Shown here in pieces: positions 4,512 through 36,978 of a stretch of DNA of 44,099 nt (the stretch's first letter is position 1; every line of letters starts with the position of its first letter). Made by a program: the position numbers and the translations under genes. This DNA is from a virus. Below the pieces are notes generated by a model. That model did no database searches, was not told the DNA's origin, and worked only from the letters and a program-made list of their open reading frames with translations. The DNA is taken from positions 1 through 44,099 of the IMG/VR virus record IMGVR_UViG_3300030419_000770. One strand, given 5' to 3'.

Positions 4512-5303
4512 ATGGCTAGTAAGAAAGTAGCAGAGCAGCAAGCCTCTGACCTCATACCTTTCGATGACGATTTGTTATCTGCGGGTACAGGGCTAGAGGA
4601 CGCGGAGGCTTCAGATTATGCAATTCCGTTTCTACGGATTCTGCAATCAATGTCGCCTCAATTAAAAAAGAGTGACGGTAAATATATCGCTGAGGCAGAA
4701 GAAGGTAACTTCTTCAATACGGTTACTGAGGCGGTGTACGACGGGTCAGACGGAGTATTGATTATTCCATGCGCCTATAAAAAGAAGTATATAGAGTGGG
4801 TGACTCGGGAAAACGGTGGTGGTTTCGTAAGTGACCAACATAATATACAGACATTAGCATCTTGTAAAAAAGATGACAGTGGACGTTTTATCATGCCTAA
4901 TGGTAATCAACTTGCTGAAACGGCAGAGTATTACTGTATTTTTGCGCAAGATGAAAATGCTCCTGAGCAAGTTCTATTGAGCTTGACTTCTTCACAGCTA
5001 GGCTTTTCGAGACGTTGGAATACAATGTTGAACAATGCTCGAGTGGTAAATAAGGCAGGAGAAGCTGTACCAGCTCCTATGTTTGCACATACATATCGAC
5101 TAACTACAATTCCGCAATCTAATGATCAATATAGTTGGATGGGACTTTCTGTTGAAAAAGAAGGGCCAACTTCGTTGCCATTAGCAACAGCGGCATTAGA
5201 GTTTATGAAGGCGGCTAGACAAGGCACTGTTCAAGTACAACAAGAACAAGAATCAGTGGTAACAACTACGGAGGAAGAGAACGAGGACGACGTTCCATTT
5301 TAG
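4512..5303 (+). CDS. Probable single-stranded DNA-binding protein (SSB-Ct tail)
   Basis: The 263-residue product ends in NEDDVPF, after a Gln/Glu/Thr-rich linker from about residue 232. This acidic tail ending in a hydrophobic-Pro-Phe is the hallmark of bacterial SSB proteins (E. coli SSB ends DDDIPF), where it docks replication partners. The folded part (about 30-230) does not show an OB-fold signature I can recognise, with motifs such as AIPFLRILQSMSPQLKK and LSLTSSQLGFSRRWNTML. AGGAAAA precedes the ATG. It lies directly before the primase and helicase genes. The SSB assignment rests on the tail, size and neighbourhood; the core family is not named with certainty. Confidence 0.7.
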   Translation: MASKKVAEQQASDLIPFDDDLLSAGTGLEDAEASDYAIPFLRILQSMSPQLKKSDGKYIAEAEEGNFFNTVTEAVYDGSDGVLIIPCAYKKKYIEWVTRENGGGFVSDQHNIQTLASCKKDDSGRFIMPNGNQLAETAEYYCIFAQDENAPEQVLLSLTSSQLGFSRRWNTMLNNARVVNKAGEAVPAPMFAHTYRLTTIPQSNDQYSWMGLSVEKEGPTSLPLATAALEFMKAARQGTVQVQQEQESVVTTTEEENEDDVPF

Positions 5304-35447: not shown

Positions 35448-36356
35448 ATGGCTATTAATAGAGCACAACTCGTTAAAGAGCTTGTTCCTGGCCTTCATGC
35501 TCTCTTTGGACTAGAGTATGATCGTTATCCGAATGAGCACGAAGAGATTTTCGACACAGAAAACTCTGAAAGAGCTTACGAGGAAGAAGTCATGCTAACT
35601 GGCTTTGGAGAAGCACCGGTCAAGAGCGAAGGCTCTGCGGTGAACTACGACACTGCACAGGAAGCATGGACAGCACGTTATACACACGACACGGTCGCTT
35701 TGGCCTTCAGCTTGACTGAAGAAGCCATCGAGGACAACTTGTATGACACTCTGTCTTCTCGTTACACACGAGCACTAGCACGTTCCATGATGACCACTAA
35801 GCAGATTAAGGCAGCTAACATTTTAAATAATGCTTTTAGTTCGTCTTATGTTGGTGGTGATGGAAAAGAGCTTTGTGCAACTGACCACCCAACCGTTGGA
35901 AATGAAGATCAGAAAAATGAGCTGTCTACTGCAGCTGATTTGAATGAAACTTCATTGGAGCAAGCGTTGATTGATATTGCTGCGTTCGAAGACGAGCGCG
36001 GTCTTAAAATTAACGCTCAGGCAAGAAAGCTAATTATCCCACCTGCTTTGCAGTTTGTTGCGGATAGGCTTCTTGAATCTCCTGGAAGAGTTGGTACGGC
36101 AGACAATGATATTAACGCGGTTCGCAATATGGGCATGGTTCCTGAAGGCTACACCGTAAATCATTATCTGACTGATACTGATGCGTTCTTCCTGAAGACT
36201 GACGTTCCTAACGGACTTAAGCATTTTGTTCGTACGGCTGTATCAACAAACATGGAAGGTGACTTTGAAACCGGAAATGTGAGATACAAGGCCAGAGAGC
36301 GTTATAGCTTTGGTTGGTCTGATTGGAGAGGTATTTTCGGCTCTCCTGGAGCATAA
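35448..36356 (+). CDS. Major capsid protein
   Basis: The 302-residue product resembles Mu gpT-like HK97-fold capsid proteins: a head start FDTENSERAYEEEVMLTGFG, then YTHDTVALAFSLTEEAIEDN, the central CATDHPTVGNEDQKN loop, RKLIIPPALQFVADRLLESP and a C-terminal RYKARERYSFGWSDWRGIFG. AAGGAGAG precedes ATG. It is followed by a very strong terminator, which fits a highly transcribed gene at the end of the head operon. Confidence 0.88.
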   Translation: MAINRAQLVKELVPGLHALFGLEYDRYPNEHEEIFDTENSERAYEEEVMLTGFGEAPVKSEGSAVNYDTAQEAWTARYTHDTVALAFSLTEEAIEDNLYDTLSSRYTRALARSMMTTKQIKAANILNNAFSSSYVGGDGKELCATDHPTVGNEDQKNELSTAADLNETSLEQALIDIAAFEDERGLKINAQARKLIIPPALQFVADRLLESPGRVGTADNDINAVRNMGMVPEGYTVNHYLTDTDAFFLKTDVPNGLKHFVRTAVSTNMEGDFETGNVRYKARERYSFGWSDWRGIFGSPGA

Positions 36357-36362
36357 TACCAC

Positions 36363-36387
36363 AGGGGGGCTATGCCCCCCTTTATTT
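36363..36387 (+). terminator. Strong rho-independent terminator after the capsid gene
   Basis: AGGGGGGC-TAT-GCCCCCCT with a following TTATTT (stem 36364-36370 with 36374-36380, plus an A-T pair). It ends the head transcript or lowers expression of the downstream tail genes. Confidence 0.9.
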
Positions 36388-36460
36388 CTGGGAATATAAT
36401 AGCCCTAGCGACTGTCCCAGCAGACGCTTACGAAGACTCTAGGGCGAAACCTTTCGTAAG
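36388..36460 (+). ncRNA. Candidate kissing-loop RNA before the 36472 gene
   Basis: Two hairpins lie side by side. Hairpin 1: stem CTGGGA/TCCCAG (36388-36393 with 36415-36420), loop of 21 nt holding GCCCTAG (36402-36408). Hairpin 2: stem CTTACGAA/TTCGTAAG (36427-36434 with 36453-36460), loop of 18 nt holding CTAGGGC (36439-36445). The two loop segments are perfectly complementary over 7 nt, giving an intramolecular kissing loop. The last stem strand runs directly into the ribosome binding site GGAGG. A TATAAT hexamer at 36395-36400, in loop 1, is an alternative explanation (a -10 box), but no -35 is present at the correct distance. Confidence 0.55.
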
Positions 36461-36471
36461 GAGGAAAACCG

Positions 36472-36978
36472 ATGGCTCAGACGACTTTCGCTGGCCCCGT
36501 TAGATCACTCGCTGGTCTTATTAATGCTGGATACAATGGTGTTGTTAGCTTAACAGCTAATACAACAATTACTGTTGCTGATCATGCAGGACGACCACTT
36601 CTTTGTAATGATGCAGATGGTGTTTTTACACTGCCTAGTATTGTTGTTACAGAACCTACTGATAAAGGTTCTCCAAGTCAAACAGCCAATTTAGGTGCGC
36701 AATTTACATTTATAGTTGTAACAGCTGCTACTGACATGGACATCGTAACGGATGGTACTGACAAATTTGTTGGTGGAATTTACACAGGCGTAGATGATGC
36801 AACTGGTAAAACTTTCATCTCAGGTGCGTCTAATGACGTTATTACTCAGAACGGTTCTACTAAAGGTGGATTAGCTGGAAGTATTATCAGAGTTACTGCT
36901 ATAGCAAGTGCTAAATATGCGGTAGAAGGATTAATACTTGGTTCAGGTACACTTGTTACTCCATTCGCTGACTCTTAA
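36472..36978 (+). CDS. Beta-rich structural protein, unknown
   Basis: AAGGAGG lies before ATG (168 residues). A low-charge Thr/Ala/Gly-rich beta protein: AGYNGVVSLTANTTITVADH, GAQFTFIVVTAATDMDIVTD and GSIIRVTAIASAKYAVEGLI. It is probably a virion surface or stabilisation protein. The gene follows the terminator and kissing-loop candidate. Confidence 0.7.
   Translation: MAQTTFAGPVRSLAGLINAGYNGVVSLTANTTITVADHAGRPLLCNDADGVFTLPSIVVTEPTDKGSPSQTANLGAQFTFIVVTAATDMDIVTDGTDKFVGGIYTGVDDATGKTFISGASNDVITQNGSTKGGLAGSIIRVTAIASAKYAVEGLILGSGTLVTPFADS

Follow-up and report, generated by a model that had tools for sequence, protein, structure and literature searches.

Predicted pseudoknotted RNA conserved before the putative capsid cement gene of a phage group

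The closest described system to the element reported here is the RNA motif Mu-gpT-DE (Rfam RF03012), which follows the gene for a Mu gpT-like capsid protein and extends to the start codon of the cement gene. Inspection of its Rfam alignment gives a core made of a stem, one bulged A, a second stem and a long 3' internal loop of the form AC...GA. The ZWD and Rfam alignments of this motif differ (PMC7657543). More distant likenesses are found in the leader of T4 gene 32, where a pseudoknot at the 5' end of a phage mRNA precedes the ribosome-binding site (PMC535899), and in the IGR-IRES of dicistroviruses, in which several interlocked pseudoknots stand immediately ahead of the point where a structural-protein gene begins (PMC12221177).

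The window considered here, the whole 44,099-nt stretch of viral DNA, agrees with Mu-gpT-DE in location, with PF10124 in its capsid protein P0001 and a cement-protein-like gene starting at 36472. Like the T4 leader, its element places a pseudoknot before the Shine-Dalgarno (SD) sequence, the -10 boxes that suggest a 5'-terminal position being found in other lineages and not in the window; the T4 pseudoknot, however, is simple, about 28 nt long and bound by gp32, and has neither sequence nor core in common with the window element. The dicistrovirus likeness is a loose analogy only, as those elements serve eukaryotic ribosomes, have no SD and are built from other helices.

An initial annotation of this DNA had described two adjacent perfect hairpins (6 bp and 8 bp) whose loops are complementary over 7 nt, directly after the capsid terminator. 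Sequence inspection found all three helices within 36388-36460, and the terminator is likewise real. The strands are interleaved in the order a-b-a'-c-b'-c'. The 7-bp core of helix b pairs GCCCTAG (36402-36408) with CTAGGGC (36439-36445), and both strands extend further to include one C-U mismatch. The four 3'-terminal bases of c' (TAAG) are also the first bases of the SD. Two parts had been absent from that annotation, namely a fourth helix, d, and a set of invariant unpaired bases (A 36411, AC 36424-36425 and GA 36435-36436, the last preceded by a nearly invariant A). The features of the locus are as follows.

35448..36356, + strand: major capsid protein gene P0001 (Mu gpT-like); Pfam PF25209 and PF10124 (Mu-like_gpT) above cut-off, PHROG major head protein
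36363..36381, + strand: intrinsic terminator 3' of the capsid gene, 8-bp stem and T-rich tail; a terminator-like hairpin occurs here in nearly all relatives listed
36388..36393, + strand: helix a, 5' strand CTGGGA, 6 bp with 36415-36420; seen in the sequence, a2-a4 covary significantly, changes on both sides in 5 of 5 pairs tested
36394..36401, + strand: loop L1, ATATAATA, a variable A/T-rich linker containing a non-conserved TATAAT (comparison of relatives)
36402..36410, + strand: helix b, 5' strand GCCCTAGCG, partner 36437-36445 with one C-U mismatch; b1 and b3-b9 covary significantly
36411..36411, + strand: bulged A at the b/d junction, invariant (99 of 99 distinct elements; the descriptor required A)
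36412..36414, + strand: helix d, 5' strand CTG, partner CAG 36421-36423; CUG/CAG, CCG/CGG and CAG/CUG occur, the middle pair having switched five times independently
36415..36420, + strand: helix a, 3' strand TCCCAG, forming the apical loop of d (covariation, pair counts)
36421..36423, + strand: helix d, 3' strand CAG (covariation, pair counts)
36424..36425, + strand: AC, invariant, opening the 3' internal loop (99 of 99; the descriptor required AC)
36427..36434, + strand: helix c, 5' strand CTTACGAA, 8 bp, within the internal loop; 24 different matched strand pairs among relatives
36434..36436, + strand: AGA, closing the internal loop and adjoining b (A in 96 of 99, G in 99 of 99, A in 99 of 99)
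36437..36445, + strand: helix b, 3' strand CTCTAGGGC (covariation, pair counts)
36453..36460, + strand: helix c, 3' strand TTCGTAAG, its final four bases in the SD (sequence, comparison of relatives)
36457..36464, + strand: SD TAAGGAGG, seen in the sequence; overlapping or closely spaced with the c 3' strand in relatives
36472..36978, + strand: cement-protein-like gene P0002 (MAQTTFAGPV...), ATG at 36472; the gene at the same place in phage DSL-LC04 is annotated as cement protein

Nested folding of the single sequence was unimpressive (z = -1.8), a score that is uninformative here because such folding leaves pseudoknots out of account. When the 44-kb record was searched with a covariance model of the core, this site was the single match (50.4 bits, E = 8.5e-9). 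A further pairing, between the terminator (36367-36373) and 36399-36405, was taken as coincidence, being missing in many of the relatives listed.

Relatives were gathered as 160 viral loci found through the capsid and cement proteins of the window, a further 160 through the cement proteins of DSL-LC04 and HTVC023P, and about 115 more through a DNA pattern; a DNA similarity search against named phages returned merely short chance or terminator fragments. The statistics were computed on 163 distinct leaders, taken from orthologous genes that had been selected through protein similarity only, with 815 dinucleotide shuffles as the control. The pseudoknot was present in 132 of the 163 leaders and in 1 of the 815 shuffles, which excludes a chance origin and bears out the view of the initial annotation that three such helices were unlikely to be fortuitous. 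Covariation was assessed against a phylogenetic null in the spirit of R-scape, in our own simplified version, with columns evolved independently at observed change counts on a 165-member cement-protein tree. Under this null 11 column pairs were significant, all of them pairs of the model (a2-a4, b1 and b3-b9), and no off-model column pair reached significance. The structured RNA proposed at the ribosome-binding site is thus attended by compensatory changes in relatives, the outcome that the initial annotation had named as support. Helix d did not contribute to the 11; the five independent switches of its middle pair gave E = 0.1.

Other counts agree with this picture. In 27 ungapped sequences, 97.2% of cells were paired as compared to 24-43% with partners slid, and the covariation score was 0.717 as compared to 0.06-0.12 for the slid versions; the descriptor had demanded pairing in a, b and d, so that the paired-cell percentages are biased upward and the shuffle and tree controls are fairer. 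Among 99 distinct elements, the bulged A, AC and GA occurred in all 99 and the base before GA was A in 96, an invariance that is partly built into the descriptor but that unselected leaders display as well. Intergenic sequence turns over almost completely across these relatives and the pairings persist, as in helix b, where the core pair of the window is replaced by GTTTTAG/CTAAAAC in L036, TCTATCG/CGATAGA in L431 and TTTTGTAG/CTACAAAA in HTVC023P. It is the predicted RNA shape, not the sequence, that is kept across hundreds of relatives. Within helix b, G-U pairs outnumber A-C combinations (49 vs. 12), as is expected of an RNA of the sense strand.

Read 5' to 3', the consensus runs from a through a linker of 6 to 14 nt into b, A, d, a', d' and AC, and then through another 6 to 8 nt into AGA, b', c', the SD and AUG. 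These alignments show a predicted pseudoknotted fold, conserved before the SD and start codon, that consists of helix b, the bulged A, helix d, an internal loop AC...AGA and an apical loop paired upstream as strand a. The three pairs of d flank a', which makes a' the apical loop of a small hairpin. Topologically, the helices are those formerly read as kissing hairpins; that reading gives way to a core of b, d and the internal loop, with a as a pseudoknot on the apical loop and c as an optional addition.

The status of helix c differs between lineages. In those whose loop has a variable part of 7 or 8 bases (N7 and N8), c pairs over 6.1-7.0 nt on average vs. 3.3-3.6 in shuffled sequences, through 24 different matched strand pairs, and its 3' strand overlaps the SD or lies close to it. 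The lineage with 6 bases in this part (N6) has no helix c, pairing over 2.65 nt comparing with 2.73 in shuffles; there the SD falls within a local hairpin, e.g., ATTAAGGAGACTTAAT. From these alignments helix c is best described as optional and lineage-specific, and the SD as generally in or beside some predicted helix, not always the same one. The internal loop of the N6 lineage (e.g., L431 and L032) is nearly fixed as nnGCC[AG]AGA, has no visible pairing partner and resembles the AGCCA of Mu-gpT-DE. A separate arrangement was seen downstream of b in the DSL-LC04-like lineage (L437, L439, L455 and relatives), in which the c 3' strand is placed in a 3-bp mini-hairpin, GTG-CTACTA-CAC. In that lineage, helix c may be a true loop-to-loop contact.

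The initial annotation matched the element to no known RNA family. This held for the window element itself, since searches against Rfam at gathering and with E up to 10 gave chance matches only, none at the element, and the RF03012 model (gathering threshold 49 bits) reached only 10.1 and 7 bits at its best matches in the window, both elsewhere. It did not hold for core and place, which RF03012 shares. A minority of leaders lack helix a and have a long local second stem; 10 of 20 loci tried, and phage CRP-902 in addition, match RF03012, and several relatives of the window carry RF03012 in place of the pseudoknot. In the reciprocal test, our model of the pseudoknotted class (R1) had no match at the RF03012 sites searched. 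RF03012 differs in having a second stem that is long, local and closed by a loop of its own, neither helix a nor helix c, and a first stem that pairs part of the SD, whereas in the window d has only 3 bp, its loop pairs upstream and the SD lies outside b. Because neither model finds the other class, though core and place are common to both, the window element is, as far as alignment can tell, a pseudoknotted variant and not a member of RF03012. The pseudoknotted class appears undescribed as judged against Rfam; the ZWD alignment of Mu-gpT-DE may already include it. Rfam types RF03012 as an sRNA gene, yet the last bases of its consensus are the cement AUG, which makes a 5' leader the likelier identity. 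An orphan Rfam motif may thereby be recast as the 5' leader of a cement gene instead of an sRNA.

In many lineages, hexamers resembling a -10 box cluster 5-10 nt upstream of strand a (58 observed vs. 7.2 expected), which would place the start at or just before this strand. In these relatives the RNA therefore probably forms the very 5' end of a distinct transcript for cement, which would begin 3' of the capsid terminator at a -10 box of the host sigma70 type. HTVC027P, a carrier of the CG-type variant, has been found to use host RNA polymerase (PMC12753301). No such promoter-like site was seen upstream of a in the window or its closest relatives, so there transcription would enter the leader after passing the capsid terminator, or from another place, and the RNA need not be a 5' end. 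A start at the TATAAT of the window (36395-36400), which had been raised as a possibility that would remove the first hairpin, is rejected because the hexamer is not conserved in close relatives; moreover, the -10 boxes of many other lineages lie upstream of helix a and leave it intact. Two suggested roles also fell away: the element cannot control read-through at the capsid terminator because the terminator lies upstream of the RNA, and dimerization of the mRNA was not supported.

In 155 of the 169 loci checked, the immediate upstream neighbor is a capsid gene. In L252, L257, L274 and HTVC027P, other genes stand between capsid gene and element, and the element has remained beside the cement gene. 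Almost all members from the pattern scan precede a protein starting MAxTTFxGP, and the genomes tested (the window, DSL-LC04 and HTVC023P) have one copy each. This distribution shows the predicted element to belong to the putative cement gene, practically always before that gene type and in one copy per genome where tested.

P0002 appears to be a capsid-reinforcing (cement) protein of marine phages, judging by its position and the annotation in DSL-LC04. It resembles its DSL-LC04 counterpart at the N-terminus only and had no match in Pfam, PHROG or the PDB, and AlphaFold modelling of the cement protein gave a result of too low quality for use (pLDDT 45). Across the phage group, cement proteins have a common N-terminal arm of about 23 residues (MAxTTFSGP...) and bodies without detectable similarity, a pattern that looks like bodies swapped behind a fixed leader and arm. 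Two cement types (alignments A4 vs. A5) align over the first 23 residues only. Leader and protein reassort freely: in 727 pairs, RNAs at least 95% identical precede cement proteins less than 45% identical, and RNA identity shows a correlation of only 0.04-0.06 with cement identity and 0.14 with capsid identity.

Given its conservation and placement, we consider it probable that the element serves the capsid cement gene as a conserved 5' leader RNA, acting in cis on initiation or stability, whether raising or restraining translation. The folded leader would act in cis on the cement mRNA, its folded 5' end shielding the transcript and its fold keeping the SD in a defined, partly paired state, such that ribosome loading on the cement gene would be set independently of the capsid gene. 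In the window lineage, without a -10 box, the RNA would be reached by read-through. The actor would be the fold itself or a conserved factor, in the simplest case the ribosome or some other host factor, that recognizes the invariant internal loop, and the body of the cement protein would play no part. Several observations run counter to this explanation. Helix c is missing from the N6 lineage, which means that the fold is not coupled directly to the SD everywhere; nine invariant positions exceed the needs of a mere stability hairpin; the window lineage shows no promoter-like site that would make its RNA a 5' end; and a single gene type is served, which a general ribosome-recruiting module would not require. 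We entertain more tentatively the idea of a portable translation-initiation module of dsDNA phages, whose interlocked pseudoknots might engage the host ribosome or an initiation factor through the A / AC...AGA loop and so set the translation of whichever decoration protein sits behind it.

In an autogenous operator, cement protein not yet assembled would bind the core at the internal loop and so repress translation of its own mRNA, in the manner of gp32 on the T4 gene 32 pseudoknot. Such control would explain the gene-specific placement in one copy per genome, the invariant unpaired bases and an SD in or beside a switchable helix (part of the SD being paired in RF03012), and has its precedent in T4 (PMC535899). 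We nevertheless regard it as unlikely: near-identical RNAs precede cement proteins without detectable homology past about 23 N-terminal residues, the common segment MAxTTFSGP has few or no basic residues, and the free reassortment makes a repressor role of the cement body unlikely. The regulator might instead be another phage protein, for instance the Mu gpT-like capsid protein, which is conserved better than cement and would tie the output of the two together; the capsid gene is usually the direct upstream neighbor, and capsid and cement occur in equal copies in phage GP4 (PMC9698820). However, RNA identity hardly tracks capsid identity, which renders this improbable. HK97-fold capsid proteins are also not known to bind RNA.

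The put sequence of phage HK022 is an antitermination RNA, and an RNA acting similarly on RNA polymerase at the start of the tail transcript would fit a single copy before the tail genes that is probably promoter-proximal in many lineages. Yet its strands abut or overlap the SD and RF03012 ends at the start codon, neither of which antitermination needs, and the window lineage has no promoter, making this reading quite improbable. A compact pseudoknot with invariant unpaired bases might also suggest a self-cleaving ribozyme or metabolite riboswitch; this we hold to be very improbable, as the window element and class I loci match no Rfam family, a 5'-terminal ribozyme would have nothing to remove where the start lies just upstream, and no metabolic gene context is seen. 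Finally, the reassortment of leaders, capsid and cement genes around the element could be taken for a recombination hinge at the DNA level without RNA function, but pairs that covary while the sequence around them changes, together with the excess of G-U, require selection for pairing in RNA, and this account is scarcely credible. The preferred reading, a cis-acting leader of the cement gene, lends itself to experiment: the structure is defined to the base pair and occurs in growable isolated phages, and a simple reporter readout would make its function testable.

When 85,000 bacterial and archaeal genomes were scanned with the pattern, 97 matches came up, roughly what we estimate chance would yield; the structure was found in none of them by the strict descriptor and in seven by the relaxed one. 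Three of these seven (L374, L400 and L425) are real members with capsid and cement genes. In L374 (near position 5039, reverse strand; near 1,090,926 of CP070693.1), the element and capsid genes lie beside bacterial-looking genes in the 1.1-Mb chromosome of a Dehalococcoidia MAG, which represents either an integrated relative of the phage group or a chimera. The Roseobacter phages CRP-902 (L166, 4496-4548) and CRP-901 (L547, 551-603) both carry Mu-gpT-DE at 72.3 bits each, providing hosts for this Rfam family.
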